Positions 35,790-43,270 of a stretch of DNA of 64,000 bases are shown in pieces; the stretch's first letter is position 1, and the number at the start of each line of letters is the position of its first letter. A program made the translations under genes and the position numbers. Source of the stretch: Nitrospirota bacterium (GTDB taxonomy: Bacteria; Nitrospinota_A; UBA7883); the NCBI GenBank assembly GCA_024275315.1, contig JAJRZK010000026.1:42501-106500 (forward strand), in the 5' to 3' direction. A model generated the notes under the pieces. That model ran no database searches, was not told the DNA's origin, and worked only from the letters and a program-made list of their open reading frames with translations.

Positions 35790-37850
35790 TCAGAAAGGGG
35801 TGATCAATTCATATACCCTGTGAAGTCCGGTCACCCCTTTAAGCTCGAAAAACCCCAACAGCCTGGTTTGAATATCGGAGTTCTTCTGTAATTCATGATA
35901 GGCGGGCTCGGTGATAAAAATACGGTTTTTCTCCGGCATGCTATCAGGATCGATGCCGTCGGGGGCTGGTATCATTTGGTCTTTTTGAACACTCTCGACA
36001 CGGAAAGCCATGTTCACCGCCAGGCCGACACGGTCCCCGCTTTTGTCCACCCTGGTTTCGCCGATATTTATCGCAAAGCGAAGCTCGATAGTATGCTTGT
36101 CATCGACAGCGGCGTTTCGCATCTGCACCTGCTCAAGGACATCCAAAGCCACGTTTACCGCGTTTAACACCGACGAAAAGGTTATGAGAAACCCGTCACC
36201 GGTGCTTTTAATAAACTGCGCGCCCTCCTGCTGGCTTACAGGCTTGATTATCTCGAAAAGGTCGCCGCTAAGTTCCAGCGCCAGGTTGTCCCCATATGTG
36301 TTGGCTATGTCCGTGGAGTGGCATATGTCGACAACCAGTATCCCCTCGGTGAGAAAGTCGCCCGGCTTGATTTCATGATTCCGCGGTTTCGCTGATTCTT
36401 TTGCAACGGAATTTTTTTCCAGATCCTCCAGAACCTCGTCCAGAAGCCAAATCCGACCGGTTATGTTTTTAAGCAATTTTAGCGCAAGGCTCTGCACCCC
36501 CTCATCGCTATCTTTCACCATCAGCTTGACGGCATCGACGGAGTCTTTGGTGTCCAGTGATGCGATGGCTTTGAGAGCTTCGATACGAACCTGTTTTTGT
36601 GGGTTTTTCGCAAGTATGGATAGCGGCTCCATCGCCTCCTCGCCTCCTATTTGCGCCAGCGCTTTCGGGATGGCCCAGACGACCTCCGGGTCTGTCACCA
36701 GCTTTCCTATCTCCGCGGCGCCTCTGCTGTCTCCTATCAATCCAAGGGCGGTTATGGCTTTTTCGCGCACCCACCAGTCGGTGTCGTCAAGCATTTTTAC
36801 CAGATGTTCAAACGCGTCAGGGTCTTTTACTCTGCAAAAAAACTCTACCGCCGATCGGCGCACCCCTTCATCCTCATCCTCAAGCAGGTCGATGATAAGC
36901 TTGCTGATTTTACTCCCGCCAAGCTCGCTCAAGGCGTCGGTGGCGATTTCACGGACCCACCAGTCGCCATCCTTAAGAGCCTTTACAAGAACCGCCGCGG
37001 ACCGAGGATCCTTCAAGCCGTTTAGCACTTCCACCGCCGCCCGGCGGATATTGACGTCTTTTTCACTAAAAAACTCCATCAACCTGGGAACCAGCGTTGA
37101 ATCGGCGATATTGATGATCGTATCGGTCGCCTGCTGTCTGATTATCATGTCCTGGTTTTTTAAATGCGGCAAAATCCGTTCCGCATCTTCAGGATCGCCG
37201 ATTTCACCCAGAGCTTTTATTATCGACCGTAAAATTGTCGGATCCTTTTCATTATCCAAAACCTCGCATAACTTCGGGATGGTGGATTTATCTTTGAGCT
37301 TGCATATTGACTCTACAGCTTTCCTGCGAATCCAAGAGTCGTTTTCGTCCAGCAACGGGAGAATCGCCGCAGACGCTTCCGACGATTTGAGCGAGCAAAG
37401 CACATCCATGGCCACTTTTTTCACTTCCCGGTTCGGATGCTTGACAAACGGAATCACCCGTCCGGTCAGAGAGCCCACACCAAGCTCTCCTATCAACTCT
37501 CCCGTTAGAATACGGATCATATGATCGTCATGGGCGAGGTATTCCACAAGGAGCGGCGCAACGGCCGCCTTGCCGCATTTGAGAATGGTGTTCTTGTAAA
37601 GTTGCCTGATATTATCCTTCGGGTCCCCGAGCCCGTCGACAAATATCTTAAGACGCTCCCGGGAAAAGAGCTTTTCAAAAATCCGCCCGGCTTCGGCGTA
37701 CAGGAGCTTGTTAAATCGCAGACTTTCAACGACGAGAGGAACAGCCAAGTCGCCATAAGACTCAAGCTGATTGATCATCTCTTTTTGCTTGTTTTCGTCG
37801 GACGAGGAAAACCTGGATAGAATCCGCTTTATCTTTGTCGCCTCGAACAT
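35790..37850 (-). CDS. HEAT-repeat protein with C-terminal class III adenylate/guanylate cyclase domain
   Basis: 686 aa; tandem ~31-aa HEAT/PBS-like repeats (e.g. DGDWWVREIATDALSELG, DTDWWVREKAITALGLIG), then GILVVDICHSTDIA...FIKSTGDGFLITF...GLAVNMAFRVES. Confidence 0.9.
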   Translation of the reverse strand: MFEATKIKRILSRFSSSDENKQKEMINQLESYGDLAVPLVVESLRFNKLLYAEAGRIFEKLFSRERLKIFVDGLGDPKDNIRQLYKNTILKCGKAAVAPLLVEYLAHDDHMIRILTGELIGELGVGSLTGRVIPFVKHPNREVKKVAMDVLCSLKSSEASAAILPLLDENDSWIRRKAVESICKLKDKSTIPKLCEVLDNEKDPTILRSIIKALGEIGDPEDAERILPHLKNQDMIIRQQATDTIINIADSTLVPRLMEFFSEKDVNIRRAAVEVLNGLKDPRSAAVLVKALKDGDWWVREIATDALSELGGSKISKLIIDLLEDEDEGVRRSAVEFFCRVKDPDAFEHLVKMLDDTDWWVREKAITALGLIGDSRGAAEIGKLVTDPEVVWAIPKALAQIGGEEAMEPLSILAKNPQKQVRIEALKAIASLDTKDSVDAVKLMVKDSDEGVQSLALKLLKNITGRIWLLDEVLEDLEKNSVAKESAKPRNHEIKPGDFLTEGILVVDICHSTDIANTYGDNLALELSGDLFEIIKPVSQQEGAQFIKSTGDGFLITFSSVLNAVNVALDVLEQVQMRNAAVDDKHTIELRFAINIGETRVDKSGDRVGLAVNMAFRVESVQKDQMIPAPDGIDPDSMPEKNRIFITEPAYHELQKNSDIQTRLLGFFELKGVTGLHRVYELITPF

Positions 37851-38134: not shown

Positions 38135-39289
38135 ATGGAACACAAACTGGAAAAAGTGAACTTTCTTGGCCAGTATCTGGCGGCTTCAAGGTCCATCGAG
38201 GAGACCTTGGAAATGGCCATGATAATATCCCAGGATGTGCTCGGGTATGATCACGCGATGATCCGTCTTCTGGAGGGGGATATTCTAAAGGCGGTCAAAT
38301 GGATCGGTTTTCCCAGAGAAGCGGCGGATATGGTTATCCATGTCGGGGAAGGCATCAGCGGTATCGTGGCGAAAACCGGCGAGCCTGCGCTGGTTATGGA
38401 TACTCTTGCCGATCCCCGGTTCCTGTCGGGAGTGGAGGGGTGCAGGTCCGAGCTTTGCGTGCCCATGATATACAACACTAGTATCGTGGGTGTTTTTAAT
38501 GTGGAGAGCAATGAGCCGGAGTTTTTTACGGAGCAGGACCTCCGTATACTGGAAACCTTCTCTCTGCAGATTACATCCGCCATGGAAACGACCAGGTTGC
38601 GCGATAAGCTGAGTAGCTCCGAAAAGCTTTCCTTAGTTGGTCAGTTCGCCTCTTCGATTCTCCATGACATAAGAAACGATATTCACCAGCTCCAGATATG
38701 CTCCGATTTGTTAAAAAAACCGAACCCCACGCCGGAGCGGATAGAAATGGTGTCGCAAATCGTGAAAAAGGCCGGCGCAAACATATATGGCATGATAGAA
38801 GATGTGCTTGAATTCGTAAGAACCGAAAGATCCAGGCTTGACAAAAAAAGTGTCCGCCTGGGTCCTTTTATTGATTCGATCATCAACAAGATCCACACGA
38901 AAGCCTCTGACAGCGACGTGTCCCTGACGGTTGAAACGGATGAGTCCATAGAGTTGGACATAGATCATGGCAGGTTCGGCAGGGCCGTATTGAACCTGAT
39001 AAACAACTCCATCGAGGCGATGCCGGATGGCGGTGAGCTTTCGATTATTTCATGGATGAACGGACGCGCCGTCTCCATCGAGCTACGTGACACGGGCGCG
39101 GGTATAGAAAAAGAGCGGCTCGATAAAATCTGGGAGCCTTTTTACACCCATGGAAAGGAAAAAGGAACCGGTCTTGGCCTGGCCATCGTAAAAAAAATCG
39201 TCGAGGAGCACGGTTTCACCGTGAACGTCGAATCTGAGCCCGGCGAAGGGACGCGAGTTACCATAACCGCACCCCAGATCAAATTATGA
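38135..39289 (+). CDS. GAF-domain sensor histidine kinase
   Basis: 384 aa; GAF (GEGISGIVAKTGEPALVMDTLADPRF), ILHDIRNDIHQLQ (H box), NLINNSIEAM (N box), GTGLGLAIVKKIVEEHG (G box). Confidence 0.93.
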   Translation: MEHKLEKVNFLGQYLAASRSIEETLEMAMIISQDVLGYDHAMIRLLEGDILKAVKWIGFPREAADMVIHVGEGISGIVAKTGEPALVMDTLADPRFLSGVEGCRSELCVPMIYNTSIVGVFNVESNEPEFFTEQDLRILETFSLQITSAMETTRLRDKLSSSEKLSLVGQFASSILHDIRNDIHQLQICSDLLKKPNPTPERIEMVSQIVKKAGANIYGMIEDVLEFVRTERSRLDKKSVRLGPFIDSIINKIHTKASDSDVSLTVETDESIELDIDHGRFGRAVLNLINNSIEAMPDGGELSIISWMNGRAVSIELRDTGAGIEKERLDKIWEPFYTHGKEKGTGLGLAIVKKIVEEHGFTVNVESEPGEGTRVTITAPQIKL

Positions 39290-39348: not shown

Positions 39349-39972
39349 TTATTCGCGGGGTTTCACGGCTACCCCCTGGTACATGTTTCCCATGATTTTG
39401 AAAGTGCTTTGAAGCATGTATCTGTCCAGGGTCGCGATCTGAAGGCCTCCGCTTTTAACGATTGATTTTATGTCCCTGTTTATGTTGCATCCGCCCAACA
39501 GACGGCGTGTGACAGGGTTCCACCTGCGCTGGCTGGCGGCCACGGAGGGGTCGTCGCTCAATCCATGCTCCAGAAAGAAAAATTTTCCACCAGGTTTTAA
39601 CGTCCTGTGCACCTCCTTGATGGCGCGGCTGATATTATCGATGCTGCAAAGTGTCCATGTGCTGACAACACAATCAAAAGAGCTGTCTTCCACAGGCAGG
39701 GTGTCGCCGGAAAGACGGTGGTACATCACCGTGATGTCCGACGATGCGGTCCTGCTTTTTGCAAGAGGCTGCATTCCCGGGTTGGGTTCTATGGCGGCCA
39801 GCTTGGTGACGGCGCTGGGATAGCATGGCAGGTTAAGCCCGGAGCCTAGCCCAAGCTCCATGATTTCTCCCTCGACCTCCGCCAGAAGCTTTACCCGAAG
39901 CTCGGTATGGTCCTCTCTGGAAAGGGCCATGTCCATGATCCTCGGGAAAATGTATCTGGAATAAAATCCCAT
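39349..39972 (-). CDS. class I SAM-dependent methyltransferase
   Basis: 207 aa; IMELGLGSGLNLPCY, DCVVSTWTLCSI, EVHRTLKPGGKFFFLEHG. Confidence 0.9.
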   Translation of the reverse strand: MGFYSRYIFPRIMDMALSREDHTELRVKLLAEVEGEIMELGLGSGLNLPCYPSAVTKLAAIEPNPGMQPLAKSRTASSDITVMYHRLSGDTLPVEDSSFDCVVSTWTLCSIDNISRAIKEVHRTLKPGGKFFFLEHGLSDDPSVAASQRRWNPVTRRLLGGCNINRDIKSIVKSGGLQIATLDRYMLQSTFKIMGNMYQGVAVKPRE

Positions 39973-39986
39973 GACAACTCCGTCAA

Positions 39987-40910
39987 TCAGTGTGGCTCAA
40001 CCTTGGATATCAGCCAGTATATCATCCCCAGAACAAGCACCGACATGATGAGCGTCGCCTGGTCCTGCCATGTGACGTGGCCAATGCTGCTCATCAGGAC
40101 TTTTCTAAGTTCCGCCACCAGCGCGACGCTTACGAACACTTTGATCGCAAACGAGCGTCCCTTGATGTGCCCGATCTGTGTGTCGAGAAGCTCGATTACC
40201 ACCCATAATATCAGCAGTGATCCCAAAGCCCCCAAAACACCTCTATCAAGTTCACCATTAACTATTTGGCTAAAATCTACAAAGCACAGCGTCACCACCA
40301 TCACACCGGTGAAAAGAAGTCCAACGACCAGTATCATGTTAAACCCGTTAACGAACCATTTGGCAGTGCGGATGATCCAGCTATCGAGCTTGTACGACAG
40401 GAAATTGGATTTCAACTCCTCTTCCATAAAAGAACGAGTCATCAGATCCAGGTTAAGATCCAGAATCTTGTTTATGGAGTTGATCAGCCTTGCCGCCGTT
40501 TCGGCGTCATCGGAGTACTCCTGTCGAATAAGGTCGGCTATAAAACCTCTCACCTGGGATATCTGAATGTTCACCTGGTGCGTAGGCAACCCGATCCGGA
40601 CATGCGTTCCACCTATCCGGTTTAACTTCAGGTAATATGAGGTTGTATATTCGGTCGAGACCAGGTCCGTCAACCAGCTTGTGAACGCATTGCGAGCTTT
40701 AGCCAGGATTTTTTCATCTTTGAAAAACCGTGCCGTGTCCGAGTTGGAGAGGAGCCTGCCATAGTGGAAATCAGCGATCCTGTCCCTGTTTTCATGGACA
40801 AGCGGAGCCGCCATTCTTATATTTCCAAGATCCTCGGATCCGATGTTGTAATCATTCATCAACCTGGTCATTTCCGACATCATAGCGATATTTCCCTCAA
40901 TGGCGTCCAA
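39987..40910 (-). CDS. globin-sensor (protoglobin-like) domain fused to PsiE-like transmembrane domain
   Basis: 307 aa; N-term IADFHYGRLL...YYLKLNRIGGTHVRIGLPTHQ (GCS proximal-His motif HxRIGL), C-term ~4 TM with LLILWVVIELLDTQIG...VALVAELRKVLM (PsiE-like). Confidence 0.78.
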   Translation of the reverse strand: MDAIEGNIAMMSEMTRLMNDYNIGSEDLGNIRMAAPLVHENRDRIADFHYGRLLSNSDTARFFKDEKILAKARNAFTSWLTDLVSTEYTTSYYLKLNRIGGTHVRIGLPTHQVNIQISQVRGFIADLIRQEYSDDAETAARLINSINKILDLNLDLMTRSFMEEELKSNFLSYKLDSWIIRTAKWFVNGFNMILVVGLLFTGVMVVTLCFVDFSQIVNGELDRGVLGALGSLLILWVVIELLDTQIGHIKGRSFAIKVFVSVALVAELRKVLMSSIGHVTWQDQATLIMSVLVLGMIYWLISKVEPH

Positions 40911-40925
40911 GCCGCCGAATATAAT

Positions 40926-42017
40926 CTAGCCCAAATTATAGTATGCCGATTTTTGTTTTGCTATCAGGGACTTTTTCAGTTTGTCCATGGCCTGCTTTTC
41001 ATCCATTACACCCTCGTCGATCATCTTTCGAACCGCCGTTACCAAAGCCTGCTGGCGATGAGGGTCGCGGCAGGACAGTATATGGTCGACTCCGGCCTCC
41101 ATCGCAAGCTGTGCCGCCTCTGAGTCCTCATATCGCCCGGTGATGGCTTTCATATCCATATCATCGGAGATAATGACACCTTGATAATTCATTCCGGCCC
41201 GCAAAACGTCTGTCAATATCTTCCTGGAAAGCGTGGCCGGATATTTGTCGTCAAGTTCGGGATACATAACATGCGCTGTCATAATAAACTCCACATCCTC
41301 GGTTACAGCCATTCTGAAGGGCGCAAGCTCCGCCCGGTTGAATCGTTCGGCCGGCCGGTCGTCCACAGGTAGGTTAAGATGGCTGTCCAGGCTCGTGTCC
41401 CCGTGACCGGGAAAATGCTTTGCGCAGGTCAGTATGCCAGCGCTCCGAAGCCCCTGGATGGCGGCGCGTCCCATCATTGTCACTTTTTCCGGGTCCGCCC
41501 CGAACGACCTGTCGCCGATTACCGGATTATCGCTGTTTGTGTCCAGGTCGAGTACCGGGGCGAAATCCAGGTTGAACCCCAGATTTTTCAGGGCCAGCCC
41601 CATCTGCGCATAGGTTTTTTTTACCCTTTTCTCGTCGCCGTCATCCGCCAGCTTTCGTGATGAGGGGAACTGGGGCAAACCGTTTTTTTCTGACGAGTCG
41701 CGCCGTTGCGCTACAGCGTCGGAGGGAAGGCGAGACACCCTTCCTCCCTCCTGGTCGCAAGCTACAAAAGGAGAAACGCCCGTTTCGTCTTCGCACAGCT
41801 TTTTTAAATCTGATATCAGTGTAGCTGTCTGGTCAGAGTTTACGATGTTCCGGCCAAACAGTATCACGCCGCCGGGCTTTAACCTGCGAAACCATGATCC
41901 CAGCTCCGGTGTGTATCTTGTCCCATCAAACCCGAACGTAAAAAACTGCCCGGCGATATCCGCCGATGAACGATCGTTGGCGAACGAGCCGAGCAAATTA
42001 TCAATCGTATCCGGCAC
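40926..42017 (-). CDS. nagZ: beta-N-acetylhexosaminidase, GH3 family
   Basis: CDQEGGRVSRLP, CAKHFPGHGDTSLDSHLNLP, VIISDDMDMKAI. Track ORF starts at 42191 inside the upstream gene; GTG at 42017 (VPDTIDNLLG...) is more plausible. Confidence 0.92.
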   Translation of the reverse strand: MPDTIDNLLGSFANDRSSADIAGQFFTFGFDGTRYTPELGSWFRRLKPGGVILFGRNIVNSDQTATLISDLKKLCEDETGVSPFVACDQEGGRVSRLPSDAVAQRRDSSEKNGLPQFPSSRKLADDGDEKRVKKTYAQMGLALKNLGFNLDFAPVLDLDTNSDNPVIGDRSFGADPEKVTMMGRAAIQGLRSAGILTCAKHFPGHGDTSLDSHLNLPVDDRPAERFNRAELAPFRMAVTEDVEFIMTAHVMYPELDDKYPATLSRKILTDVLRAGMNYQGVIISDDMDMKAITGRYEDSEAAQLAMEAGVDHILSCRDPHRQQALVTAVRKMIDEGVMDEKQAMDKLKKSLIAKQKSAYYNLG

Positions 42018-42022
42018 GGGAC

Positions 42023-43270
42023 TTATCCAACACCGATAATTCCGATCACCGCTCCGGTCATCATGGTCGCGTAGGTTCCGGCGATAATCGATTTGAAACC
42101 CAGCGAGACGATCTCGTTCCTGCGTTCCGGCGCCATCGCCCCCATCCCACCGATCATAATTCCAAGACTGCCAAGGTTTGCAAATCCGCACATGGCGTAG
42201 GTCATGATCATGGCCGATCGGGGACTAAGCGCGTCTTCTGGCAGTTTGGCCAGTTGCATATAGGCCAGAAACTCGTTCAGCACTGTCTTGACACCCATCA
42301 GTGACCCCGCAGTGACCGCCTCATTCCATGGTATTCCCATGAGCCAGACAAGGGGAGCCATAATGTACCCCAGGATTTTCTGCATTGTCACAGGTTCATC
42401 GCCCATGTCGGGCAAAAGCGCGAAACCCTGGTTAACAAGGCTGACAAGCGCGACAAGCACGATCAGCATGGCGACAATGTTTATAAGCAGGGTCACCCCT
42501 TCTAGCGTTCCTTTGGTGATGGCGTCCATGGATCCGCTGTATACCTGTGGCGGCTCCAGCTCGCCTGCGGTGGGGTCGCCTGTTTCGGGGACCATTAACC
42601 TGGAGATTGTTATCGCCGCCGGGGCGCTGATGATCGACGCTGTCAATATATGCCCCATCGCCGCAGGGATTATTGGGCCCAGTATGCTGGCGTATAGCAC
42701 CATCATGTTTCCAGCGATGGTAGCCATACCGCATGTCATGATGATAAACAGTTCGCTCCTGGTCATCTCTTTCAGATACGGGCGGATAAACAGGGGAGAT
42801 TCGATCATGCCCACAAAAATATTCGCCGCCGCGCCCAGCCCCACCGCTCCGCCAAGGTTCATAGCCTTGCGTAACACCCCGGATATGCCTTTTACTATCA
42901 GGGGGGCGATGCGCCAATAGAAAAACAACGATGAAATGGCGCTTACCACCAGGATCAGCGGAAGCGCCTGCAGGGCCAGAACGAAACTGGAGCCAGGGAA
43001 TTTTTCGTCAAAAGGCAATGGGCCGCCCCCCAAATATCCAAACACAAAAGCCGATCCGGCTTTGGCGGAGCTTTGAAACGCCATGGTAACCTTGTTTAGC
43101 AAAAGGAAAAAATCCTTGAATAGCGGGAATTTAGTTAGCGTTATGGCTATGGCCAACTGCAACACGATCCCTGTGACCACAGGCTTGATGCGCGCCTCTC
43201 TCCTGTTTTCGCTCATGATCCAGGCGAGAAAGCAAAAGGCGAACAGGCCAAAAACGCTCTGAATAACCAA
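42023..43270 (-). CDS. concentrative nucleoside transporter (NupC family)
   Basis: 415 aa; VFGYLGG, GLGAAANIFVGMIESPLFIRPYLKEMTRSELFIIMTCGMATIAGNMMVLYA, CGFANLGSLGIMIGG. Confidence 0.94.
   Translation of the reverse strand: MVIQSVFGLFAFCFLAWIMSENRREARIKPVVTGIVLQLAIAITLTKFPLFKDFFLLLNKVTMAFQSSAKAGSAFVFGYLGGGPLPFDEKFPGSSFVLALQALPLILVVSAISSLFFYWRIAPLIVKGISGVLRKAMNLGGAVGLGAAANIFVGMIESPLFIRPYLKEMTRSELFIIMTCGMATIAGNMMVLYASILGPIIPAAMGHILTASIISAPAAITISRLMVPETGDPTAGELEPPQVYSGSMDAITKGTLEGVTLLINIVAMLIVLVALVSLVNQGFALLPDMGDEPVTMQKILGYIMAPLVWLMGIPWNEAVTAGSLMGVKTVLNEFLAYMQLAKLPEDALSPRSAMIMTYAMCGFANLGSLGIMIGGMGAMAPERRNEIVSLGFKSIIAGTYATMMTGAVIGIIGVG

Follow-up and report, generated by a model that had tools for sequence, protein, structure and literature searches.

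A heme-sensor-like globin joined to a PsiE membrane domain: a predicted GsGCS-family protein whose distal pocket differs

Background

One gene in the window, by which we mean the whole 64-kb stretch of DNA analysed, appears to encode a heme globin followed by a membrane domain of the PsiE family, which raises the question of what such a protein senses and how its membrane domain responds. PsiE proteins are found from E. coli to archaea, and we know of no function for them; psiE of E. coli is induced by phosphate starvation, from which the family takes its name.

Results

One reading frame with two domains

The open reading frame at 39987-40910 (- strand) was confirmed in the window. The frame opens with a TTG at 40910, but the ATG at 40883, which lies behind GAGGG, is likely to be the start judging from the sequence, with the stop at 39987 (Table 1). 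Residue numbers given here count from this ATG (298 aa), and the Pfam domain limits use a 307-aa numbering. The frame had been described as a globin-PsiE fusion, and hmmscan against Pfam identified both domains, without overlap and far over their gathering cut-offs: Protoglobin (PF11563, 5e-27, 95.3 bits against a cut-off of 25, residues 11-165) and PsiE (PF06146, 4.1e-18, 66.1 bits against 23.9, residues 192-304). Because the two parts form a single unbroken frame in all relatives checked, a frame or assembly artefact is excluded.

Table 1. Features of the globin-PsiE locus, in window coordinates, and loci of rubredoxin-PsiE genes
Feature	Position	Strand	Basis
Globin-PsiE gene	39987..40883	-	298 aa from ATG; homologues begin at same site
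GAGGG, Shine-Dalgarno-like	40894..40898	-	sequence; ten bases upstream of ATG 40883
Protoglobin (globin-coupled-sensor globin) domain	40416..40880	-	PF11563; 2w31 profile match; Foldseek TM 0.90
His40-Tyr41, predicted distal residues B9-B10	40761..40766	-	alignment with 2w31
Phe67, predicted E11, in place of HisE11 of GsGCS	40683..40685	-	alignment
His94 in HVRIGL, predicted proximal heme ligand F8	40602..40604	-	aligned with His93 of 2w31
PsiE membrane domain, four predicted TM helices	39999..40337	-	PF06146; hydropathy; model helices
Glu231, TM2, near-universal in PsiE	40191..40193	-	79/80 PsiE domains
Arg260, TM3, near-universal in PsiE	40104..40106	-	74/80 PsiE domains
NagZ-type glycoside hydrolase family 3 gene, directly upstream	40926..42191	-	PF00933, 2.6e-76
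Rubredoxin-PsiE loci	L174-L176, L215-L220, L223		sister-family genomes, seven in all

The solved structure that best matched a profile of the family was PDB 2w31, the heme-bound globin domain of GsGCS, the globin-coupled sensor of Geobacter sulfurreducens (E 2.2e-38, residues 1-162), and the profile also matched AfGcHK, DosC and HemAT. An AlphaFold2 model built with 61 family members reached a mean pLDDT of 89.4; an earlier run with 8 sequences had given 74, with a weak membrane half. In Foldseek comparisons the globin half of the model superposed on solved globin-coupled-sensor domains with TM scores of 0.90 (AfGcHK) and 0.91 (GsGCS), and the range over solved sensor globins, including HemAT and DosC/BpeGReg, was 0.78-0.91. 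The globin assignment of the preliminary description was thus borne out both by the Pfam search and, with regard to the fold, by the structure model.

The heme pocket

The histidine of HVRIGL, which had been taken for the proximal heme histidine, aligned with HisF8 of 2w31, and among 78 aligned globin-PsiE sequences (2w31 counted in) only one lacks a histidine at this site. The exception, L016 (= G017), has the residues GHTFVKLGL at the site and is possibly a heme-free or shifted variant. HisF8, TyrB10 and the E14 Trp are conserved in the family globins, Tyr-B10 being kept in about nine of ten aligned sequences and missing from a few.

The letters E7, E11, B9 and B10 were carried over from 2w31 by alignment, and their assignment leans also on what we take to be general features of sensor globins. 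In the alignment of 78 sequences, distal-pocket classes track clades. All eight members of the clade of this gene, the divergent L016 excepted, have His-B9, Tyr-B10, Ala-E7 and Phe-E11, and a distal histidine at E7 or E11 is absent from this clade. In the large deltaproteobacterial clade E7 is His and E11 is Leu or Ile; in the Geobacter branch E7 is Leu and E11 is His; and a further group has Arg at E7. With Phe67 at E11, the protein is predicted not to be bis-histidyl in the manner of GsGCS, in which the second heme ligand is HisE11 according to PMC4476040 and PMC4686822, both citing Pesce 2009.

The membrane domain

Hydropathy analysis gave four hydrophobic segments, in line with the approximately four noted earlier, and in the model the PsiE half, also proposed earlier and matched by Pfam as stated above, has helices at residues 162-208, 212-240, 247-267 and 272-295. 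Helix 127-160 runs directly on to helix 162-208, which holds TM1, and E156, F161 and S163 are conserved at this junction. Four crossings with both termini inside would fit the basic TM2-TM3 loop (HIKGR) and a cytoplasmic globin under the positive-inside rule.

Alignment of 80 PsiE domains (27 globin-fused, three rubredoxin-fused and 50 solo, including that of E. coli) yielded only two near-universal polar residues, Glu231 and Arg260. They lie on adjacent membrane helices at similar depth by residue count, and could plausibly form a buried salt bridge. The 80 aligned domains gave no sign of a heme or metal site in the membrane part, nor do they conserve any His pair or Cys through which electrons could pass.

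Distribution and relation to GsGCS

Counting the genomes that carry the fusion, as had been proposed, gave nine of 24 in the phylum for the full-length protein (source genome counted in), plus deltaproteobacterial and Geobacteraceae members. The eight relatives in the phylum are 46-64% identical to the protein described here, and the family as a whole 31-64%. Scanning genome contigs with an alignment-based profile retrieved 40 loci, which outside the phylum were mostly in deltaproteobacterial metagenome bins, whereas a single-sequence scan of genome contigs gave no match; a plasmid search also gave none. PsiE was present in 112 of 297 Desulfobacterota-type genomes, and the long PsiE frames retrieved from these 297 included 37 globin-PsiE fusions. 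Nine of the ten protoglobins in the 24-genome sample are tied to PsiE, the tenth (L155, G016:C43) being a globin-GGDEF diguanylate cyclase. Four other PsiE genes with longer frames (L122, L124, L126 and L131) showed no second Pfam domain.

G. sulfurreducens itself was not among the 48 Geobacteraceae genomes sampled. A match was found in 36 of the 48, in most cases an orthologue 57-68% identical to 2w31 over the whole domain, and in all 12 orthologues retrieved a PsiE domain follows the globin (E about 1e-49). By inference from these sequences, full-length GsGCS would itself be a globin-PsiE protein. The preliminary description had proposed a membrane domain as output rather than an MCP, GGDEF or kinase module; this holds, the domain being PsiE, but the layout is not without precedent, since GsGCS would belong to the same family. 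No paper naming PsiE with protoglobin or rubredoxin was found, which is weak evidence, few subscription papers having been covered.

PsiE domains fused to rubredoxin

Seven genomes of the phylum without protoglobin carry PsiE frames of 217-231 aa, with an N-terminal rubredoxin motif (CxxC...CxxC) in all seven genomes; three of three frames tested matched the Rubredoxin Pfam family at 1e-22 to 1e-21. In a maximum-likelihood tree of PsiE domains, whose deep branches are long and unsure, the globin-fused domains formed one group (92/96) and the rubredoxin-fused domains another (100/100), amid solo PsiE domains. Because the groups are separate, the two fusions look independent. No genome in the phylum sample carries both, an outcome with a chance of 0.02 on the assumption, which does not hold, of independent genomes. 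Adjoining the rubredoxin-PsiE gene are genes for a rubrerythrin (L176) or a CoA-binding protein (L215 and L216), and at L216 an Rrf2 regulator and a COX1-type oxidase subunit are also near.

Gene context

The NagZ gene lies directly upstream on the same strand in eight of the nine loci of the clade; wherever gene calls exist for both, -1 to about 40 bases separate them, and the two genes are likely to form one operon. In the deltaproteobacterial clade ndk and rlmN flank the globin-PsiE gene, and mtnP and a pfkB kinase are found farther out; 35 loci, some of them counted twice, have ndk directly upstream. NagZ alone was named by family search, and the other four names are those we presume from reading the neighbour sequences. 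No partner gene is common to both clades (NagZ in one, ndk/rlmN and other housekeeping genes in the other), and the conserved neighbours were set aside as a clue to function, as they look like inherited positions and disagree between clades. Since neighbours differ in this way, the context names no pathway. The methyltransferase at 39349-39972, suggested earlier as belonging to the same pathway, is indeed downstream on the same strand, but it adjoins the gene in only one of nine loci, that of the source genome, and was rejected as a pathway partner.

A HEAT-repeat protein (window 35790-37850, - strand), an unusual regulator, ends in a domain resembling adenylate/guanylate cyclases (PF00211, marginally above the cut-off), and a GAF-histidine kinase is encoded near the globin-PsiE gene on the opposite strand (window 38135-39289, + strand). 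Several relatives also have kinases close to the gene, but this cluster is broad. At L149 (5857-8613, - strand), and also at L150, a multiheme-cytochrome-like protein of 919 aa with many CxxCH motifs is encoded two genes upstream of globin-PsiE, on the opposite strand.

Discussion

The protein is best described, as far as sequence comparison and modeling can tell, as a true heme-sensor-like globin on a PsiE domain, belonging to the GsGCS family but differing from GsGCS in its distal pocket. We consider it probable, though by no means assured, that it is a membrane-anchored sensor of this family, in which a cytoplasmic heme globin reads a gas or redox state and drives the PsiE module. The globin would bind heme b via His94(F8), and a diatomic gas (O2 or NO) or the redox state would be sensed in a pocket lined by Tyr-B10 and Phe-E11, B9 being His. 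Ligand binding may then move the long helix H, which would run via the conserved linker into TM1, and its shift may alter the packing of the four PsiE helices around the Glu231-Arg260 pair. The sensor would presumably be a dimer, and PsiE would act within the membrane, its target being either a partner protein or membrane permeability.

The sensor reading is drawn from the matches of both domains over their cut-offs, the match to the heme-bound 2w31 and the TM scores of 0.78-0.91; from the conservation of HisF8, TyrB10, the E14 Trp and the junction residues, with helix 127-160 continuing into the TM1 helix; from the single clade of globin-fused PsiE domains and the tie of nine of ten phylum protoglobins to PsiE; and from the independent rubredoxin fusion, which puts another iron protein on the same module. 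Against it stand the loss of the F8 His in L016 and the lack of a partner gene common to the clades, and the globin could be enzymatic.

If it were an enzyme, a membrane-tethered globin would detoxify NO or consume O2 or peroxide, with PsiE serving mainly to anchor it or to dock an electron donor. That the other N-terminal partner of PsiE is rubredoxin, an electron carrier, would suit this explanation, as would the rubrerythrin beside rubredoxin-PsiE in one locus and the COX1-type oxidase gene and Rrf2 near it in another. However, globin-PsiE has neither a reductase domain nor a conserved reductase neighbour, PsiE conserves Glu and Arg in place of any His pair or Cys, and the literature calls the relatives sensors, so that we regard an enzyme as rather unlikely. 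The signal might instead be one of redox state, read by a switch between six- and five-coordinate heme such as is open to the bis-histidyl GsGCS. GsGCS relatives have HisE11 according to the alignment and to PMC4476040, and in the clade of this gene the invariant His-B9 adjoins Tyr-B10 and could be the sixth ligand.

The same clade, however, has no His at E7 or E11, and we know of no precedent for His-B9 as a heme ligand; such a switch appears quite improbable for this protein. A degenerate or heme-free globin fold acting as a dimerisation scaffold for PsiE would account for the loss of HisF8 in L016 and of TyrB10 in a few relatives, but retention of HisF8 in all but one of 78 sequences, despite only 31-64% identity to the protein here, makes this explanation very hard to credit.

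Among known systems, GsGCS would have the same domain order, globin then PsiE, but has HisE11 where the protein here has Phe, with His-Tyr at B9-B10. AfGcHK, HemAT and DosC/BpeGReg share the globin fold and HisF8, whereas a kinase, a chemotaxis signalling domain and a GGDEF enzyme serve as output in these proteins instead of a membrane domain. According to PDB titles, the Methanosarcina acetivorans protoglobin has the same Tyr-B10 and Phe-E11, but it has Trp-B9 in place of His-B9 and is a single domain without a membrane part. On the side of the membrane domain, E. coli PsiE and the PsiE-like protein of a heat-resistance island belong to the same Pfam family; E. coli PsiE keeps the Glu and Arg core but stands alone, with 136 aa and no globin. 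The rubredoxin-PsiE proteins of the sister family likewise carry an N-terminal iron protein on PsiE, in the same phylum, but the iron protein is rubredoxin and the PsiE clade is separate from the globin-fused one.

Mainly on the ground of the rubredoxin fusion and its neighbours, we suspect that PsiE is concerned with redox or oxygen. The E. coli heat-resistance island, in which a PsiE-family protein is found alongside KefB and thioredoxin (PMC7010813), may be a weak pointer in the same direction.

Conclusion

A broader proposal, which we offer tentatively and regard as doubtful, gives PsiE a general role as the membrane output module of cytoplasmic sensors that read gas or redox state through iron. 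In this view the module would work by way of a buried Glu-Arg pair and would have been joined at least twice independently to an iron protein (heme globin and rubredoxin), in alternative lineages of one phylum. If true, this would open a first way into the function of a widespread family so far characterised only by its induction under phosphate starvation. What makes the finding of interest is that PsiE has been coupled to iron proteins repeatedly. For the Geobacter sensor whose globin domain was crystallised, the untouched other half is now placed, by inference, in the PsiE family. The globin and rubredoxin fusions suggest that gas or redox signals act on PsiE, and as natural constructs they would allow the input to be switched by CO, NO, O2 or dithionite while the output is sought.
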